A DNA stretch of 64,000 bases from Methanolobus psychrotolerans (GTDB lineage Archaea; Halobacteriota; Methanosarcinia; Methanosarcinales; Methanosarcinaceae), in NCBI RefSeq assembly GCF_002243045.1, contig NZ_MBKP01000004.1:124001-188000 (forward strand). Direction: 5' to 3'. This document shows, piece by piece, positions 3,634 to 10,658 of this stretch. The notes under the pieces were generated by a model, which ran no database searches, had not been told where the DNA came from, and was given only the letters and a program-made list of their open reading frames with translations. Position 1 is the first letter of the stretch. Each line of letters begins with the position of its first letter. The position numbers and the translations under genes are program-made.

Positions 3634-3738
3634 TCTTTTAATATTTTTAGTAAGAATATCAGTCCAACTCTCCTTTTTGTGTTAATTGTATCTCTATTTT
3701 ATCCATGGAAGGCATGTTATTCACTCAAAAGGATAACT

Positions 3739-3746
3739 TTTATAAT
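3739..3746 (+). promoter_or_regulatory. TATA box of the coenzyme M operon
   Basis: TTTATAAT lies about 25 bases before the ATG at 3768, which would make the mRNA leaderless or nearly so. This spacing supports 3768 rather than the upstream in-frame ATG at 3705 as the start of cysteate synthase. Confidence 0.6.
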
Positions 3747-3767
3747 CGCTCTTTCCACATTTGCCTT

Positions 3768-5018
3768 ATGGATAAATATAGTGTGAAATGCCTGATGTGT
3801 GGCGAAGTTCACGACCATTATTCATTGAATTGTAAAAAGGGTGATGATTCTCTTCTTCGTGCTTATTACACAGCCAAACAGTTGATCCCATCGGATATGC
3901 CGGGTATATGGAGATACTACAACTGGTTGCCTACTGAAGGTATCATAGAAGAAGGTTCAGGAAGAACTATCACCTATAAAAGTAAGGGCCTTGCTTCAGA
4001 TCTTGGTCTTGACGATCTGTGGATTGCTTTTAATGGTTACTGGCCGCAGAAGGATGCTTATCTTATGACATGCACCTTCAAAGACCTTGAGTCCTTCCCG
4101 ACCATGCAGAGACTCAGAGAACAGCAAGAAAAAAGGATAATGGTAGTGGCATCCGCAGGCAACACTGCCAGAGCATTTGCCCATGTTTGCAGCATCACCA
4201 GCCAGCCTCTGCTCCTCGTGGTCCCAAAGGACAGTGTACACAGGTTATGGACCATACATGAAGATAATTATTCAATCTGCCTTGTCACAGTTGAAGGCGA
4301 CTATTTCGATGCAATTGCCCTTGCAGGTAAACTTGCATCACTGGAAGGTTTTGTAAATGAAGGTGGTGCAAAGAATGTTGCCAGGCGCGATGGAATGGGT
4401 ACTGTGATGCTGGATGCTGTCCTGACTTCAAAAGAACTGCCCGCTCATTATTTCCAGGCAGTCGGAAGCGGCACTGGTGGTATATCTGCATGGGAGGCAT
4501 CCATGAGATTACTTGCAGATGGAAGATTCGGAGATACTTTGCCAAAGCTCCATCTTGGGCAGAGCCTTCCATGCGCTCCGTTATATTCGCTCTGGAATGG
4601 CGTTGATGCAGTGGATGCTGCGTGTCCCGGGGGGATGTATGATGATGTTCTCTTTAACAGGAAACCACCTTTTGCCGTAAAGGGCGGTGTGAAGGATGCC
4701 CTTGAGGCAACCGGTGGAACTCTCTATGCTGTAAGCAATAAGGAGGCTTCGGATGCTCAGGAACTCTTTGAGAATGCTGAGGGCATAGACATAAACCCAG
4801 CTGCTGCGGTTGCAGTCGCTTCATTGGTGCAGGCTGTAAAAGCCGGTAATGTAAAGCCCGGTGAGAAAATAGTCCTCAATATCACAGGCGGCGGACAAAA
4901 ACGATTGATGCAGGATTATAAATTAAAGCAGTTGCCCATATCCCTTGAAGTATCAGCAAAGGATGAGGGTGCAGAGGCTAAGGTAGTAAAAAAGGTAGCA
5001 GAAGTATTTGGTGTATGA
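3768..5018 (+). CDS. Cysteate synthase (coenzyme M biosynthesis)
   Basis: A PLP-dependent enzyme of the threonine synthase fold that, in the characterised Methanosarcina enzyme, converts O-phosphoserine and sulfite to L-cysteate, the first committed step of coenzyme M synthesis in this order. From ATG 3768 the product is 416 residues. The N-terminus has a Cys-rich knuckle (CLMCG...LNC) typical of threonine synthases, the likely PLP lysine is K105 in TFKDL, and VASAGNTARA binds the substrate. The glycine-rich NITGGGQKR lies near the C-terminus. The in-frame ATG at 3705 would put the start upstream of the TATA box, so it is not preferred. Its stop overlaps the next start as ATGA, and comD/comE lie further down the same operon. 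Confidence 0.9.
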   Translation: MDKYSVKCLMCGEVHDHYSLNCKKGDDSLLRAYYTAKQLIPSDMPGIWRYYNWLPTEGIIEEGSGRTITYKSKGLASDLGLDDLWIAFNGYWPQKDAYLMTCTFKDLESFPTMQRLREQQEKRIMVVASAGNTARAFAHVCSITSQPLLLVVPKDSVHRLWTIHEDNYSICLVTVEGDYFDAIALAGKLASLEGFVNEGGAKNVARRDGMGTVMLDAVLTSKELPAHYFQAVGSGTGGISAWEASMRLLADGRFGDTLPKLHLGQSLPCAPLYSLWNGVDAVDAACPGGMYDDVLFNRKPPFAVKGGVKDALEATGGTLYAVSNKEASDAQELFENAEGIDINPAAAVAVASLVQAVKAGNVKPGEKIVLNITGGGQKRLMQDYKLKQLPISLEVSAKDEGAEAKVVKKVAEVFGV

Positions 5019-5785
5019 TCATGAGTGAAATAATCAATCTTACAATAATTGGTGGTGTCAATAAGGATGGTGTTGATGAACCCATAAGGTCTGTTGATAT
5101 TTGCCGCGGGGAAATCGTGGGCATTGTAGGTCCCACAGGTTCCGGCAAGAGCACACTTATCGACGACATCGAGCAGCTTGCCCAGGGTGACACCCCAACC
5201 GGCAGGACGATTCTCATCAATGGCGAGAAACCGGATGCAAACATACGTGTGGATCCACGTAAGAAACTCGTGGCCCAGTTATCCCAGAACATGCATTTCC
5301 TTGCGGATATGACAGTCGAGGAATTCCTGCAGATGCACGCGCGCAGCAGGGGCAAGGATGAAGGTCTTGTGACAAGGGTTATCGAACTTGCAAACACCCT
5401 TGCAGGAGAGCCTATTGCCGCACACCATCATCTTACAGCTCTCAGTGGTGGTCAGTCCAGGTCACTCATGACCGCAGATATAGCAGTCATCAGCGATTCC
5501 CCGGTAGTACTTATTGATGAGATAGAGAATGCCGGTATCAAAAAACAGGAAGCTCTCCAGTTGCTTGCAGGAGAGGGAAAGATCGTTGTCGTGGTCACGC
5601 ACGATCCGGTGCTTGCGCTGATGTCTTCCCGCAGGATAGTTATCAGGAACGGCGGTATGGCGGATATTATCACCACAAGCCTGCAGGAGCAGGATGTCTG
5701 TGACAGGATCACCGAGGTAGATAACTGGCTCATGTCCCTCAGGGAAACCATCAGGCGAGGGGATATCGTCGAGGGCATCGCATGA
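5015..5785 (+). CDS. Stand-alone ABC-type ATPase in the coenzyme M operon
   Basis: 256 residues forming one ABC nucleotide-binding domain: Walker A GPTGSGKST at 39-47, signature LSGGQSR at 144-150, Walker B VVLIDEIE at 165-172 and H-loop VVTHD at 194-198. No permease or substrate-binding gene is adjacent, so a transporter role is doubtful; soluble ABC ATPases often drive protein or cofactor remodelling. It overlaps cysteate synthase and the following GTPase by ATGA junctions, implying translational coupling. An internal ATG at 5021 is an equally good start. The substrate is unknown. A role in assembling a metallocentre needed for coenzyme M or its enzymes is inferred from context. Confidence 0.85.
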   Translation: MIMSEIINLTIIGGVNKDGVDEPIRSVDICRGEIVGIVGPTGSGKSTLIDDIEQLAQGDTPTGRTILINGEKPDANIRVDPRKKLVAQLSQNMHFLADMTVEEFLQMHARSRGKDEGLVTRVIELANTLAGEPIAAHHHLTALSGGQSRSLMTADIAVISDSPVVLIDEIENAGIKKQEALQLLAGEGKIVVVVTHDPVLALMSSRRIVIRNGGMADIITTSLQEQDVCDRITEVDNWLMSLRETIRRGDIVEGIA

Positions 5786-6480
5786 AACTGGTAGTAGTTG
5801 CCGGTACTCCGGGTTCAGGAAAAACCTCTGTTCTACTGCACACGATAAAAGCCCTCATGAGACATGAAAAAAAGCCAGCCGTCGTCAAGGTGGATTGTCT
5901 CTGGACAGATGATGACCAGCGCTTCAAAAAACTGAATGTCCCTGTTCGTGTGGGACTTGCCAGGGACATGTGTCCTGACCACTTTACCATTTATAACACC
6001 GAGGAAATGCTCAAATGGGCAGAGAAAGAAGGTGCTGACGTTCTCCTGAGCGAAACCGCCGGACTTTGCCTGCGCTGCGCCCCCTATCCTGATGAATGTC
6101 TTGCAGTATGTGTCATTGATGTTACAACAGGTCCGAACACTCCATTGAAGGTTGGTCCGCTTCTGACAACAGCCGACATAGTTGTCATGACAAAGGGCGA
6201 CCTTGTATCCCAGGCCGAACGTGAGGTTTTCAGGGAACGGGTGCTTGAGGTCAATCCCGGTTGCAACATAGTGGAAGCCAACGGCCTGACAGGGAAAGGA
6301 GCATTCGAGCTTGGAGAGCTGATACGTTCCGGGCCGGATGTTTGTGATAATATGGTCCTGCGCTACAATCCTCCACTTGCCATATGTTCTCTGTGTACAG
6401 GTGAGACACGTGTTGCAAGGAAGCATCATATGGGTGTCCTCAGAAACCTTGACGGTTTTATGGAGTATAAGGGGGAATAA
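5782..6480 (+). CDS. G3E/SIMIBI-type P-loop GTPase, likely metallochaperone
   Basis: 232 residues. P-loop GTPGSGKT at 8-15, a switch-like LLSETAGLC region at 88-96, and TKGD at 137-140 as the guanine-specificity motif (variant of NKxD). This architecture matches the HypB/UreG/CobW class, whose members insert metals or cofactors. Candidate metal ligands are CLRC at 96-99 followed by DEC and VC, and a C-terminal CSLC at 202-205 with HH at 215-216. It overlaps the ABC ATPase by ATGA and is followed after 3 bases by an Fe-S protein. It is not HypB or UreG by its neighbours; the client protein is unknown. Confidence 0.8.
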   Translation: MKLVVVAGTPGSGKTSVLLHTIKALMRHEKKPAVVKVDCLWTDDDQRFKKLNVPVRVGLARDMCPDHFTIYNTEEMLKWAEKEGADVLLSETAGLCLRCAPYPDECLAVCVIDVTTGPNTPLKVGPLLTTADIVVMTKGDLVSQAEREVFRERVLEVNPGCNIVEANGLTGKGAFELGELIRSGPDVCDNMVLRYNPPLAICSLCTGETRVARKHHMGVLRNLDGFMEYKGE

Positions 6481-6483
6481 CCT

Positions 6484-7119
6484 TTGAGCGAGATCGAAAA
6501 ACTGCTTCCGGGCTATAATTGCGGAAGCTGTGGCTTTCGTCAGTGCAGGGATTTCGCCGCGGAGCTGAAAAGTCCCGAAGACCTGCATAAATGTCCTTTC
6601 CTGATTCGCGAGAATTTCCAGGACAATGCCAGAAAAATATTGCTCCTGTTAGGTGCAGACATCCCCCTGGATGAAAAAATAGTAGGAATCATTGATGGCA
6701 TTGAGGCGGATTTCACACTGGCTCCGCTTAAGGATGAATGTTCCTGCAGGGAAGATATACATCCATTTGACGGCTCAATTGAAATAGAGGCAGGTGACAT
6801 ACTTCGTTACAGGCCTCTGGGATGTCCGATTACTCACTTTGCAAAGGTCATTGAGAAGACCCCAGGTGGAATATATACTGTCCATCTTGTCGGACCCCTG
6901 CACAGGCTTGGAAACGATGATTTCAAATTCAAGGACGTTGGTCTTTGTATGATATTGGCCTTTGACGGAAAGGTTGCAAAAGGTAAGATTCCCAAAGTAG
7001 GTCAGACCGTGAAGTTCGTTCCTGAGTACTGCATGATGCAGAAGGTCCACTCCGGCATGGTCGTAGGTGTGGAAGGCAGGAACGTTCGCATCGAGGCAAT
7101 AGACCTTAAAGTATGGTGA
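6484..7119 (+). CDS. Fe-S cluster domain protein of the ATPase/GTPase trio
   Basis: 211 residues, starting at TTG 6484 directly after the GTPase stop, with GGGGGAATAACC as a plausible ribosome binding site. The N-terminus has Cys at 13, 16, 21 and 37 (C-x2-C-x4-C-x15-C), the pattern of the 4Fe-4S domain found in corrinoid Fe-S proteins and Rnf/anaerobic enzymes. More cysteines follow at 86, 88 and 114 (PLGCPITHF). The C-terminal half looks like a beta-rich domain and I do not recognise it. It could be the electron donor or the cluster-carrying partner of the preceding GTPase and ATPase. comD starts 4 bases after its stop. Confidence 0.75.
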   Translation: MSEIEKLLPGYNCGSCGFRQCRDFAAELKSPEDLHKCPFLIRENFQDNARKILLLLGADIPLDEKIVGIIDGIEADFTLAPLKDECSCREDIHPFDGSIEIEAGDILRYRPLGCPITHFAKVIEKTPGGIYTVHLVGPLHRLGNDDFKFKDVGLCMILAFDGKVAKGKIPKVGQTVKFVPEYCMMQKVHSGMVVGVEGRNVRIEAIDLKVW

Positions 7120-7123
7120 TCTC

Positions 7124-7651
7124 ATGGAAACTTCGTTATCAGGTGCAATGACACCTTCAGAGTCTGTATTCAAAGGAATAAAAGATGCAGGTATAGATTT
7201 TATTGTCAGTGTACCTTGTGCCAATCTTAAAGAGCTGATCCCGATGGTGGATGCTGCTCCTGATATCATTCATGTTCCTGTGACCCGTGAGGAGGAAGGT
7301 GTAGGCATATGTGCAGGTGCCTACATGGGCGGGAAAAAGCCTGCAATGCTGATGCAGAACTCAGGCCTTGGTAATTCAATCAATGCCCTTGCTTCACTGG
7401 ATATTCTCTATGGAATTCCCCTTTTGATGATAATGAGTCACAGGGGTGTCGAAGGCGAACCCATAGTTGCCCAGGTACCCATGGGTGAGCTAACCCCGAA
7501 GCTGCTGGATACAATGGATATTCCCTATTTTCTTCCGCAGAGCGGGACCGACCCGGCAGAACTCATAATAAGGGCCTGGAAAGTGGCCTCAGAAGAGAAA
7601 AAACCTGTTGCTGTACTTTTACCTATACCTTTCTGGAGGACGCAGTCATGA
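7124..7651 (+). CDS. comD: Sulfopyruvate decarboxylase, alpha subunit
   Basis: 175 residues matching the N-terminal (PYR) domain of TPP-dependent decarboxylases. The conserved glutamate that activates TPP lies in VTREEEGVGICAGAYMGG, and NSGLGNSINAL follows. With ComE it decarboxylates sulfopyruvate to sulfoacetaldehyde, the penultimate intermediate of coenzyme M. Its TGA overlaps the comE start as ATGA, as expected for subunits made in equal amounts. In many methanogens the two subunits are fused; here they are separate, as in Methanocaldococcus. Confidence 0.92.
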   Translation: METSLSGAMTPSESVFKGIKDAGIDFIVSVPCANLKELIPMVDAAPDIIHVPVTREEEGVGICAGAYMGGKKPAMLMQNSGLGNSINALASLDILYGIPLLMIMSHRGVEGEPIVAQVPMGELTPKLLDTMDIPYFLPQSGTDPAELIIRAWKVASEEKKPVAVLLPIPFWRTQS

Positions 7652-8211
7652 AGCGTATAGATGCCATTAACGAGGTTGCTGAAAAGGCAAAAGAAACCGG
7701 TGCATTGCTCATAGGCAACATTGGTATCCCCTGTAAGGAATTACATAATGTATGCGATATGCAGGCTAATTTCTACATGCTGGGCTCCATGGGACTTGCA
7801 TCTTCCATTGGTCTTGGTCTTGCACTATCGCGTCCGGATAAAAAGGTAATTACAATAGAAGGGGATGGTTCCATATTGATGAACATGGGAACCCTTGCAA
7901 CAATAGCTTCGCAGGAGCCTGGGAACTATCTACTGGTCATTATTGATAATGGTGCTTACGGTTCTACAGGCAACCAGCCTACAGCCACGTCAAAGGGCAC
8001 CGATCTTGCGGCGGTTGCAAAAGGTGCGGGAAACAAAAGGGTCTATGAGGCTGATACTCCGGATAACCTGAGGGAGATCCTGAGGTTCGTGGATGCCGGG
8101 GTAATAGTAGTAAAAGCAGATCCGGGGAACACCGATGCTCCGGTGATCGAAATGACTCCTAAAGAGATATTGGAACGGTTTATGGATATATCTTCTCAAC
8201 CATCTCGTTGA
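7648..8211 (+). CDS. comE: Sulfopyruvate decarboxylase, beta subunit
   Basis: 187 residues corresponding to the C-terminal TPP-binding domain: EGDGSILMNMG through DNGAYGSTGNQ is the GDG...N motif that binds Mg2+-diphosphate. It pairs with ComD. The last 32 bases overlap the 3' end of the convergent DUF39-ferredoxin gene, so the two transcripts are antisense at their ends. It is the last gene of the coenzyme M operon that begins at 3768. Confidence 0.92.
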   Translation: MKRIDAINEVAEKAKETGALLIGNIGIPCKELHNVCDMQANFYMLGSMGLASSIGLGLALSRPDKKVITIEGDGSILMNMGTLATIASQEPGNYLLVIIDNGAYGSTGNQPTATSKGTDLAAVAKGAGNKRVYEADTPDNLREILRFVDAGVIVVKADPGNTDAPVIEMTPKEILERFMDISSQPSR

Positions 8212-9463
8212 GCTTGAATTCTCCATCTATTACTTTCTTTTTCAATTTCTCCGCCAGCTCCTCTGATCTTTTACGGTCAGATTGCCTGAGTACGATTGGA
8301 ACATCGAAATGTTCTGCATCTGTTTCAAAATGCAGAGTTCCGAGCTTCGCAGTGAACACTTTTTCCGGGCAGATAGTTGTGCAGAGGCCGCAATTGAAAC
8401 ACAGGTACCTGTCAAGTATCACTCTGTCATCCTTGCGGTATATTGCCTCCATCGGGCAATCCCGGACAGGTTTGCATATCTCACAATTAAGGCATACGCC
8501 AGGATTAAAGCTGACTGAAGGATCTGTATTCTTCCATGCATCGGCGTATGTGCTGCTGCCTATCATTACTCTTTTATCGACATCGTTCACGACCATGGGA
8601 ATGTCTTTGTCGGTTTTAAGGATAGCATCGAGTACAGACTGGCTTGTGACAGGTATTGCAATTGCCCAGGATGCTATACATTCCGGTCCGGTGGATGTCT
8701 TGAATCCGCCCATCAGTGCAGGATCCATATTATGCATGTCTGCAACGCCGGTAAGGTTCGGCTTCCCTGGGCTGCTGCGCGTTCCTTCTCCAATGACAAA
8801 TCCTTCGGCACCATTCATAAGCATGCGTGTTCCTATGCCAATGGTCTCCATTTTCGGATCATTCTGGACCGGGTTTATCTCACCACATCCGGAAAGTGTC
8901 GCACCGTTCATGTCAGGGCTGAATTGCACAGCATGGAATATCGTGCTGACAGGCTTAGACGAACAATTGACAAAAGCCGCATAGTTCTTGAAAGCATGGC
9001 GGGTCGCGTAGAGCTTTGCATAGGGCATGTCTGCCAGTTTGATCTCACTTTTGAAGGATACATTCTCATCGGTGACAACAGAAACATCTATACTTTTTCC
9101 TTCAGCCATCTCCCTGAACAGGTGGCCAGCGCCGTAACTGTGTTTATGGGTTGAGTGTGCCGTACCGAATATTATCAGGTCAAGCATTCCAAGATTTTCG
9201 TTGGGACAGGGGCCCACATATGCAGGAACTCCATTAAGGAACACTTCTGCTGCTCTCCTGAAACCAAGAGGGGAATTAACAGGAAATGAAAGAACTGCAT
9301 ATGTTCCGCTCATAATCGCTCTTGTTGCAGTGGTGACAACATCAACATTCATTGTGCTAATGTTCTCTCCCCTGTCCACAAGTTTGGATACTTCCTGTGC
9401 TGTCATCACAACAGCTTCTTTTCTCTCAAGTTTCTCTCTGATCTTGGCAACAGAGTGTTCCAA
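8180..9463 (-). CDS. DUF39 + 2x[4Fe-4S] protein, methanogenesis marker 16
   Basis: From TTG at 9463 the protein has 427 residues. This start has a GAGGA ribosome binding site 7 bases upstream and removes a low-complexity extension that would otherwise overlap the next gene. The N-terminal 300 residues are DUF39/COG1900-like (GCGEINPVQNDP motif); the end is a two-cluster ferredoxin, with Cys 324/327/330/336 and 355/358/361/365. Methanogenesis marker 16 is a methanogen-specific family of this layout. A DUF39 relative with a separate ferredoxin converts aspartate semialdehyde to homocysteine in Methanosarcina, an aldehyde-to-thiol reaction. Next to comDE, this paralogue is a strong candidate for sulfoacetaldehyde to coenzyme M; that assignment is inference. 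Confidence 0.85.
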   Translation of the reverse strand: MEHSVAKIREKLERKEAVVMTAQEVSKLVDRGENISTMNVDVVTTATRAIMSGTYAVLSFPVNSPLGFRRAAEVFLNGVPAYVGPCPNENLGMLDLIIFGTAHSTHKHSYGAGHLFREMAEGKSIDVSVVTDENVSFKSEIKLADMPYAKLYATRHAFKNYAAFVNCSSKPVSTIFHAVQFSPDMNGATLSGCGEINPVQNDPKMETIGIGTRMLMNGAEGFVIGEGTRSSPGKPNLTGVADMHNMDPALMGGFKTSTGPECIASWAIAIPVTSQSVLDAILKTDKDIPMVVNDVDKRVMIGSSTYADAWKNTDPSVSFNPGVCLNCEICKPVRDCPMEAIYRKDDRVILDRYLCFNCGLCTTICPEKVFTAKLGTLHFETDAEHFDVPIVLRQSDRKRSEELAEKLKKKVIDGEFKLNEMVEKIYP

Positions 9464-9524
9464 AATATTCCTCGTGTCAGTTATGTGAATGTAAAAATAG
9501 AAAAGATCGCAGCATTTGCTGCGT

Positions 9525-10658
9525 TCAGTCAACACCAAGTATACTTGCCAGTTCAAGACCCTCGCTTCCAAGTTCTGCAAGCTGGTCAAAGGATTCTTCC
9601 TTGGTGATATATTTCTCTGTACGGGTGCCGTCAGATGCTTCAATCTTAATGGTTATTTCGTTTTTGACATATCCTCTCTCAAGTGATTCCTTAACAATGT
9701 CCCCATATTGTTCGGCAATGAGCTTGAGGCAGTCAAACACTTCATTATTGCGCACAGCATCTTTTCCATCAAGAAGTATCTGTGTCAGTTTGTGCGTCTT
9801 TATGAACATTTCCACATACTTTCTAAGATCATTCACAAGACCTGTGATGTCATCAACTTTCACTGATTTGAGCAGTGTTTCATCAGAAGTGATCTCGAGG
9901 TCCCCGTGATATATCTGGTATGTGTCATTGTCAGAAACAATCCTGAATTTGTGCTCTCCCTTCTTGTTCTCAAAATTCACATCTACATGTTTGTTACCGT
10001 CATAGTTTATAGACGTGATTATGTACTCGGATACATCCATCATTTTGACCTTATTTTCTTTATATATTATGCCCGATTTCGTCCATGTTGGCAGGAGCAG
10101 TTCCCCGTATGCCTCTCTGATGGTAAGTATGTCGTGAGCATAGGTAAGGTCGCATGAGTATTCCATGCCGGAAAAAGATGCTTTGAGTAATCCTCTTAAA
10201 GCTCCATCTGCCATGGAAACAGAATATGTTTTGTTTGCACCATATACTCCGGATTCAAAAAGCGGTTTCAGATTGTTCAGCAGGTCCTGTTCTATCTTAT
10301 AAATGCCACTTTCAGACTGGCGTTTGATCTGTTCCAGTTTCTGGTTAAGTTCTTTGAGTCCGCGGTTTGTGGTTTCAACGCATACGTCTATGACAGCGTT
10401 GCGGCATTCAAGGATCTCCTTATTCTCCGCTCCCTTTGAACGCTCATCAACGTATTGCTGTATATCCTTGCTGAAACTTTCAATTCCCGCAATTCTTGAC
10501 TCAAGGGAAGATATCTCTTCTGATTCTTCCTCACTAAGTTCAATAGCGGAGTTTTCAAGTGGCAGGACCTTCTTTGCCATTTCTATGAAGTTGTTAAGGT
10601 CCTGAATAAAATCCCTTTGTAAAGGTAATTCAGTAGAGTCCTGAAATGTGTATTTCAT
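9525..10658 (-). CDS. Conserved hypothetical coiled-coil protein
   Basis: 377 residues, soluble, with no signal peptide. The N-terminal third (about 25-125) is a Glu/Lys-rich coiled coil (ELSEEESEEISSLESRIAGI), the middle (about 130-270) looks beta-rich, and the C-terminus is helical and acidic. I recognise no domain. It has its own TATA box at 10701-10714 and a GGGGAT ribosome binding site, and stands alone between tyrS and the DUF39 gene. Function is unknown. Confidence 0.7.
   Translation of the reverse strand: MKYTFQDSTELPLQRDFIQDLNNFIEMAKKVLPLENSAIELSEEESEEISSLESRIAGIESFSKDIQQYVDERSKGAENKEILECRNAVIDVCVETTNRGLKELNQKLEQIKRQSESGIYKIEQDLLNNLKPLFESGVYGANKTYSVSMADGALRGLLKASFSGMEYSCDLTYAHDILTIREAYGELLLPTWTKSGIIYKENKVKMMDVSEYIITSINYDGNKHVDVNFENKKGEHKFRIVSDNDTYQIYHGDLEITSDETLLKSVKVDDITGLVNDLRKYVEMFIKTHKLTQILLDGKDAVRNNEVFDCLKLIAEQYGDIVKESLERGYVKNEITIKIEASDGTRTEKYITKEESFDQLAELGSEGLELASILGVD

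Follow-up and report, generated by a model that had tools for sequence, protein, structure and literature searches.

Three adjoining genes encoding a soluble ABC ATPase, a G3E GTPase and an iron-sulfur (Fe-S) protein, called here the trio, lie at 5015-7119 in a 64,000-nucleotide (nt) stretch of the Methanolobus psychrotolerans genome (GCF_002243045.1, contig NZ_MBKP01000004.1, 124,001-188,000 of the forward strand); this whole stretch is the window and coordinates are positions in it. As a preliminary description of the locus had stated, the three genes touch one another and stand between the gene for cysteate synthase (cs) and comDE, which we confirmed from the open reading frames (ORFs) and the family scores. 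The ABC ATPase gene (5015..5785, + strand; PF00005, ABC_tran, 61.3 bits, cut-off 25) shares 4 bases with the end of the cysteate synthase gene; it may equally well start at the in-frame ATG at 5021. The GTPase gene (5782..6480, + strand; PF02492, cobW, 55.7 bits, cut-off 20.7) likewise shares 4 bases with the end of the ABC gene, and the Fe-S gene (6484..7119, + strand; PF04060, 37.1 bits, cut-off 23) has a TTG start after a gap of 3 bases and is followed by comD, which starts at 7124.

The trio is inherited as one unit, and the preliminary description was right to treat the three genes as one set. Our main survey covered 246 genomes of the phylum; of the class I methanogens, our sampling included Methanopyri alone. 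The full-length Fe-S protein was found in 61 of them and a GTPase of the type called A below in the same 61, a count weakened by the fact that the threshold for a full-length Fe-S protein was placed after a gap between 90 and 49 bits had been seen. In five further genomes the GTPase is of the other type or a fragment, and in one locus (L114 of genome G256; G, L and f numbers are our handles for genomes, loci and families) the trio genes could not be read. Over 13 genomes, pairwise distances are correlated at 0.97-0.98 within the trio proteins versus 0.82-0.88 with cysteate synthase and the coenzyme M synthase MMP16, values that have to be discounted for the species tree that they all share. 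In addition, all 19 Methanosarcinales loci keep the identical order cs-abc-gtp-fes-comD-comE, so that the arrangement is not due to chance. The GC content of the three genes in the window (ABC 0.512, GTPase 0.499, Fe-S 0.473) differs from the mean of 54 long ORFs (0.439, standard deviation 0.030); a recent foreign insert was considered and rejected, because the relatives show no consistent GC contrast.

In the legend of their Fig. 2, Chadwick et al. (2025) mention an ATPase, a Ni2+ binding GTPase and a COG2000 Fe-S protein, of unknown role, that are often colocalised with coenzyme M biosynthesis (PMC12068725). Judged by this description, these genes correspond to the trio; the co-localisation itself is therefore not new, and the trio can no longer be called undescribed, as it was at first. 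Our literature search found no description of the family beyond that paper and the family is apparently unnamed.

The three proteins and the trees of the two NTPases

The trees of the GTPase and of the ABC ATPase, the two nucleoside triphosphatases (NTPases) of the trio, both give the groups A1, to which the window's trio belongs, A2 and B. Several features of these trees weaken the scheme: in the ABC tree A1 is split at Methanopyri and is thus not one group; that tree has no outgroup, and its branch with support 100/99 only separates A2 from A1 and B; in the tree of the GTPase, A1 and B are united with weak support (82/54) and the branches of the UreG/HypB outgroup are very long; finally, the 44 rows (plus 2 outgroup rows) are a chosen part of the loci found.

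The ABC protein has the features expected of an ABC ATPase, since the Walker A motif, the LSGGQ signature, the Walker B motif and the H-loop are present in all 48 branch A homologues (32/32 of A1 and 16/16 of A2). It remains under the cut-off for all of the best 25 of 153 families, and TIGR03269, the component A2 of MCR activation, is not among these best 25. By eye, no ABC permease was recognised directly beside the trio in the branch A loci read, a permease elsewhere in the genome being possible, in line with the lone ATPase first noticed; one locus (L145) has PstA/B-like genes at about 1-2 kb from the trio.

The GTPase belongs to the G3E superfamily, with PF02492 above its cut-off, invariant E91, A93 and G94 and the fold of UreG and HypB: its predicted structure (pLDDT 83.9) matches UreG with Z 19.9 (root-mean-square deviation, rmsd, 2.5 over 185 residues) and HypB with Z 18.8. 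It is under the cut-offs for HypB (TIGR00073, 56.5 bits versus 121.2) and UreG (TIGR00101, 32.6 bits versus 204.2), and the statement that no standard maturation factor is present thus holds for the families that were tested. The COG0523/CobW subfamily is marked by a CxCC motif (PMC9164220), which occurs neither in the window GTPase nor among the conserved columns of our alignment. The metallochaperone-like motifs noticed earlier are present (C96LRC99, C202SLC205 and H215H216), the C-terminal 45 residues, which include CxxC and His216, forming an additional extension of lower model confidence. C64, H67, C96, C99, C202 and C205 are kept in 62/62 homologues of all branches, and H215 is not invariant among the branch A GTPases. 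Residue 216 separates the branches, being His in 50/50 homologues of branch A and Gln in 12/12 of branch B; in loci collected later it is His in 11/11 A2-like proteins from Bacteroidales and Gln in 5/5 of branch B. The weight of this marker is reduced by two points: the change from His216 to Gln is confined to one clade and counts as one event, and the 62 rows are a chosen subset of the loci found.

The Fe-S protein consists of a CoFeSP-type 4Fe-4S domain (residues 1-58) followed by a beta-barrel. As already described, it carries Cys 13/16/21/37, and these four cysteines are invariant in 18/18 aligned sequences, in agreement with its membership of PF04060. In the same 18 diverse sequences C114, H118, C183 and H189 are also invariant, which had escaped the preliminary description; that they form a metal site in the barrel is a guess from this pattern. 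The profile of the protein matches the CoFeSP chain 4djd_C (E 5e-9). In the model (pLDDT 88.6) the N-terminal domain matches the CoFeSP chain 9fzy_F with Z 7.7 (rmsd 2.2 over 54 residues), and because this value is just under 8, the level below which a common arrangement has to be suspected, it is the sequence profile that bears the assignment. Foldseek gave no match to the whole model at E <= 0.001, and the C-terminal barrel has only weak structural matches, with Z up to 5.3 for ATP synthase B subunits and about 4 for aIF2gamma.

Association with the coenzyme M genes and loss of the trio

In the window the trio is surrounded by genes of coenzyme M synthesis. Cysteate synthase, the first gene of the type 2 coenzyme M pathway, lies upstream (3705..5018, + strand; TIGR03844, 590.6 bits, cut-off 324.9); the alpha and beta subunits of sulfopyruvate decarboxylase, comD (7124..7651, + strand; TIGR03845, 227.8 bits, cut-off 147.95) and comE (7648..8211, + strand; TIGR03846, 234.2 bits, cut-off 221.5), lie downstream. 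They are followed on the other strand by MMP16/ComF (8180..9643, - strand; TIGR03287, 521.9 bits, cut-off 363.95; PF01837, 331.7 bits), composed of a HcyBio/DUF39 and a ferredoxin domain; this is the DUF39-ferredoxin protein of the preliminary description. It was shown genetically to be the main coenzyme M synthase in M. acetivorans (PMC12068725). The match to TIGR03287 begins at residue 79 of the ORF and, judging from relatives, the listed start probably lies about 60 codons upstream of the true one. The genes comE and MMP16 converge and share 32 bases at their 3' ends (8180-8211).

Among the 246 genomes, MMP16 was found in 111, of which 56 have the trio and 55 do not, and five genomes have the trio without MMP16. 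Cysteate synthase is above its cut-off in 104 of 246 genomes and in 58/61 of those with the trio. The trio thus follows the coenzyme M genes, MMP16 accompanying it in 56/61 genomes; the possibility, raised beforehand as a reason to abandon the idea, that it is absent from most methanogens applies to about half of the MMP16 genomes. The distance between the Fe-S gene and MMP16 is at most 5 kb in 44 of the 56 genomes and at most 200 bases in 30; the genomes beyond 5 kb are nine of f3 and three others. The trio clusters with cs, comDE and MMP16; in f3 it stands with cs and not with MMP16. The order is cs-trio-comD-comE in Methanosarcinaceae, cs-trio in the f3 loci read and trio-MMP16-cs-comDE in the Methanomicrobiales-like families. 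Five families have the trio in all their MMP16 genomes (f3 9/9, f16 8/8, f23 5/5, f24 5/5, f13 4/4), others in part of them (f5 6/7, f1, the Methanosarcinaceae, 15/32, f11 1/2, f4 1/6, f7 2/26), and f9, f17, f25 and f29 together in 0/7. A COG1900 gene was present in 16/16 genomes probed.

The trio is dispensable for the pathway. Ten genomes of the window's genus were sampled, and two of them (G095 and G186) have no trio, keep cs-comD-comE and have MMP16 nearby; cs and comD overlap by 4 bases in the former and are 2 bases apart in the latter. We concluded that the trio can be lost without loss of the coenzyme M pathway, and that it is not essential for coenzyme M synthesis, given these two genomes and the 55/111 MMP16 genomes without it. 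In M. acetivorans about 140 bases separate cs from comDE, according to the coordinates in PMC12713407. These data do not support the idea that the DUF39-ferredoxin protein depends on the trio for its maturation in every case.

The best evidence that the trio and MMP16 work together comes from second copies of MMP16. In two genomes such a copy directly adjoins the trio, co-directional in G226 (L069) and convergent in G179 (L063). The MMP16 tree places both of them in a set of 12 rows (support 97), apart from the resident copies, and all members of this set but that of G227 adjoin a trio. The two genomes retain two coenzyme M synthases.

A number of observations speak against such a partnership, or against an exclusive one. 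Half of the MMP16 genomes are without the trio. The MMP16 tree was a quick one, rooted at its midpoint; in G179 the convergent trio and MMP16 do not form one operon, and G227 belongs to the trio-linked MMP16 clade without having a trio. Three trio genomes carry cysteate synthase without MMP16, and the complete genome G182 has the trio and neither of these two genes. There are second trio copies away from coenzyme M genes (L060 and L072), and the neighbourhood of the trio can be regulatory rather than mechanistic.

Some other features of these loci were noted. The orphan trio of L060 (9434-13552) stands by genes that by eye resemble an ASKHA-type ATPase and parts of corrinoid methyltransferases. 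G227 (L097) is without the trio and cysteate synthase and keeps MMP16, its family otherwise keeping the whole cluster; G003, of the same family, has none of the three, and both organisms are possibly coenzyme M auxotrophs. In Methanomicrobiales-like loci (L067, 4929-6359; L060, L061, L073 and L133) a SsuA-like protein with no evident signal peptide is found near the trio, in some loci alongside a helix-turn-helix regulator, and is perhaps a cytosolic sulfonate sensor. It was rejected as a partner of the trio, since it occurs in some loci only and is below the cut-off where scanned.

Desulfurase operons, bacterial loci and branch B

The trio is not specific to methanogens. Loci were also found in Bacteroidales (six, one of them without the ABC gene at a contig end), in one Gallionellaceae and in one Methanopyri genome. 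The Fe-S protein is present in 5/5 Methanopyri genomes searched, and the whole trio was read in four. Among 296 Bacteroidota and among 200 genomes of the Gallionellaceae order the Fe-S protein was found in the centre genome alone, as was the GTPase among 274 genomes of the Gallionellaceae class. Among the bacterial or Methanopyri trio genomes, 5/8 show no COG1900 (DUF39) gene; these five are all bacterial and mostly metagenome-assembled genomes of unstated completeness. ComF can therefore not be the sole client, a strict tie between the trio and COG1900 was rejected, and the bacterial hosts without a gene of the ComF family indicate that clients vary. A histidine kinase and a response regulator adjoin the trio in 6/6 Bacteroidales A1 loci, the kinase being confirmed by Pfam in three. 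In two Bacteroidales genomes a gene that by eye is HydG-like stands by this two-component pair (L020, 7389-9062; L022, 3153-3905).

A link with sulfur appeared in the order of Maribellus, where the GTPase is present in 18/198 genomes (12 of A-type, including Maribellus, five of B-type and one fragment). In 10/11 of the remaining A-type loci the gene after that of the GTPase encodes a cysteine desulfurase of the NifS/IscS group, and the Fe-S gene comes next in 9/10. Four of these desulfurases were compared with NCBIfam and gave NifS as best family, below its cut-off. The exceptions are L149, without a Fe-S gene, and L160, without a desulfurase between the GTPase and the Fe-S protein. The four-gene operon ABC-GTPase-NifS-Fe-S can be followed in L145-L153 and L159 (Bacteroidales, L149 being incomplete as said) and in one archaeal locus (L061, 7989-11334, of G009), with the order abc-gtp-NifS-fes. 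The SxGSACS motif of the desulfurase is kept in 10/11 aligned rows, one of them archaeal (G009), and the pyridoxal phosphate lysine in 11/11. Upstream of A2-like loci there are Rrf2 ("iron-dependent") regulators (confirmed by Pfam in L147, L150 and L153) and Crp-like regulators (by Pfam in L147); a ThiF-family gene is near L061, L076 and L151, and genes of SufB/C type are near three archaeal A2 loci (L061, L132 and L063). By eye, no scaffold was recognised in the Bacteroidales A2-like loci. The window trio itself has neither a desulfurase nor a scaffold and is thus not a Nif, Isc or Suf system.

This sulfur link is lessened by the following points. The 11 Bacteroidales loci were called A2-like by best BLAST match, without a tree, and among the 11 aligned desulfurases that of L159 is frameshifted and that of L152 has a stop. 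G039, a relative of G009, has no desulfurase between the GTPase and the Fe-S protein. Of 22 A2 loci only L061 has the desulfurase inside the trio, and in L063 and L073 it is several kb off; no desulfurase was found in the 33 loci searched of A1, the branch of the window. The sulfur link therefore rests on A2, and A1 is tied to sulfur through MMP16 alone.

Branch B has other proteins in the position of the Fe-S protein. GTPases of this branch (272-296 bits) occur in 17/246 genomes, including G095 and G186, which have no trio, and in a Fusobacterium vincentii record. Compensation for the loss of the trio was considered and rejected, because branch B is also found in trio-bearing genomes of the same genus. 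We read 12 loci from the 17 genomes with a full GTPase, the fragment of G003 yielding nothing. The ABC partner is usually extended at its N-terminus and no Fe-S protein stands alongside in the loci read; plasmid searches likewise gave the Fusobacterium GTPase and ABC ATPase and no Fe-S protein. In its place there is a cytosolic SBP_bac_6 protein, mostly with DUF1858 (L110, L116, L118 and L122 by Pfam; L117, L125, L127 and L128 by BLAST), or a DUF364/DUF4213 protein of "putative heavy-metal chelation" (L119, L120, L121, L123 and L126, all by Pfam). FecCD or Peripla_BP_2 parts of chelate importers adjoin in L118, L119, L120, L121 and L125, ZnuA and ABC-3 in the Fusobacterium locus L110, and mtr genes in two genomes (L121 and L123). 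DUF364 was associated by gene context with metal transport and with the handling of iron, tungstate, vanadium and molybdate (PMC2954201).

Possible function and comparison with known systems

We propose, with moderate confidence, that the trio of branch A is a module driven by nucleoside triphosphates which delivers metal or sulfur, with ComF as a likely but unproven client for which it would be auxiliary and not essential. At the core of the family, in both its branches, a cytosolic ABC ATPase would form a stable pair with a G3E GTPase, and the ATP and GTP cycles of this pair would power the transfer of a metal, or of a metal-sulfur unit, to a third protein. For branch A we envisage a route from the GTPase to the Fe-S/barrel protein and then to the client, with the cysteine desulfurase as sulfur source in some operons. 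In methanogens the trio would support the last step, the insertion of sulfur by MMP16/ComF or its relative L-ASST, and may provide that enzyme with its metal or Fe-S cluster, or with sulfur and electrons, when these are limiting. An enzyme that copes unaided when sulfide and metal are abundant would explain why the trio is present in a patchy manner. A role with metal is suggested by the family and fold of the GTPase, its six invariant Cys/His residues and the chelation proteins and importers of branch B; a role with sulfur is suggested by the NifS-type desulfurase after the GTPase in ten Bacteroidales loci and one archaeal locus. The unity of the trio, its family, the exchange of the third partner, the linkage to MMP16 and the dispensability are shown by the data above; the cargo, the metal concerned, the direction of the transfer and ComF as client are inferred.

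More tentatively, anaerobes may have a so far unrecognised NTP-driven system for the delivery of metal and sulfur, distinct from Isc, Suf and Nif, with this pair at its centre. When complete, it would comprise the ABC ATPase, the GTPase, the desulfurase and the Fe-S/barrel carrier and would load a metal-sulfur unit onto clients. In methanogens, which use sulfide, the desulfurase would have been lost and the remaining genes linked to coenzyme M synthase, and a paralogue marked by the change of His216 to Gln would have swapped the Fe-S carrier for a cytosolic solute-binding or chelating protein handling imported metals.

The main rival is an electron donor gated by ATP and GTP, in which the CoFeSP-type protein would feed low-potential electrons to MMP16, as in the MCR activation complex, and no metal would be loaded. 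The 4Fe-4S domain of CoFeSP is known for electron transfer to corrinoids, and the trio protein matches it by profile, by fold and by PF04060. Moreover the MMP16 reaction needs 2 or 4 electrons (PMC12068725), and in MCR activation the ABC-type A2 drives electrons through Fe-S clusters (PMC12176620). However, MMP16 has its own ferredoxin domain, half of the genomes that encode it manage without the trio, and branch B keeps both NTPases beside metal importers without a Fe-S partner in the loci read, which points to a cargo other than electrons; we consider this explanation rather improbable. Equally improbable is a general module for metal limitation or Fe-S repair without a mechanistic tie to coenzyme M, co-located because it is needed under the same conditions as coenzyme M synthesis with its ferredoxin-type MMP16. 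Bacteria without COG1900, the two-component pair in all six Bacteroidales A1 loci, the Rrf2 and Crp-like regulators of the A2-like loci and the orphan trio copies (L060, L072 and L131) agree with it, but the tight association with coenzyme M genes recurs in differing orders and a second MMP16 has come to stand beside the trio in two genomes. Lastly, it is very improbable that the ATPase serves a SsuABC-like importer of sulfonate or coenzyme M with its permease elsewhere and the other two genes as passengers, as the SsuA-like protein near some loci (TIGR01728, 86.6 bits in L067, below the cut-off of 163.5; by eye in L060, L061 and L073; by BLAST in L133) might suggest, since no permease adjoins the trio in the loci read, the ATPase falls below the cut-off for the best 25 of 153 families and it co-evolves with the G3E GTPase in all branches.

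Delivery of metal or sulfur by the trio would matter because coenzyme M is essential for methane production and the route of sulfur and electrons to its synthase was left open by Chadwick et al. (PMC12068725). A conserved and dispensable unit beside this synthase gives a direct genetic handle on that supply. Provided that the wider family holds up, methanogens, Bacteroidales and Fusobacteria have in common an NTPase pair for the handling of metal and sulfur, for which a single residue (His216 or Gln) predicts the partner, a prediction that can be tested.

In comparison with Chadwick et al., the sections covered of their paper contain nothing on branch B, the NifS operons, the cassettes or the residues (PMC12068725); the two-branch family, the desulfurase operons, the cassettes and the residue marker are added here and were not found in print in our literature search. 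The N-terminal domain of the large subunit of CoFeSP and of CdhG shares its profile, fold and four cysteines with residues 1-58 of the trio Fe-S protein, which differs in having no corrinoid-binding part and in its C-terminal barrel with C114/H118/C183/H189. Component A2 of MCR activation is larger than the ABC ATPase of the trio. The MCR activation complex (A2, McrC and Mmp proteins) likewise combines a soluble ABC-type ATPase with Fe-S proteins in methanogens, but no G3E GTPase is mentioned in the part of that paper covered, and the complex serves another client (PMC12176620). With Nif, Isc and Suf the Bacteroidales A2-like operons share a NifS-type desulfurase. SufC is likewise a soluble ABC ATPase; unlike these systems, the trio module has no recognised IscU, NifU or SufB scaffold, its version in the window has no desulfurase, and it contains a G3E GTPase. 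This GTPase shares the G3E fold and motifs with UreG and HypB, with CPDH where UreG has CPH, but it falls under both cut-offs, adds a C-terminal extension with CxxC and His, and has as partner an ABC ATPase instead of UreE/UreF or HypA.

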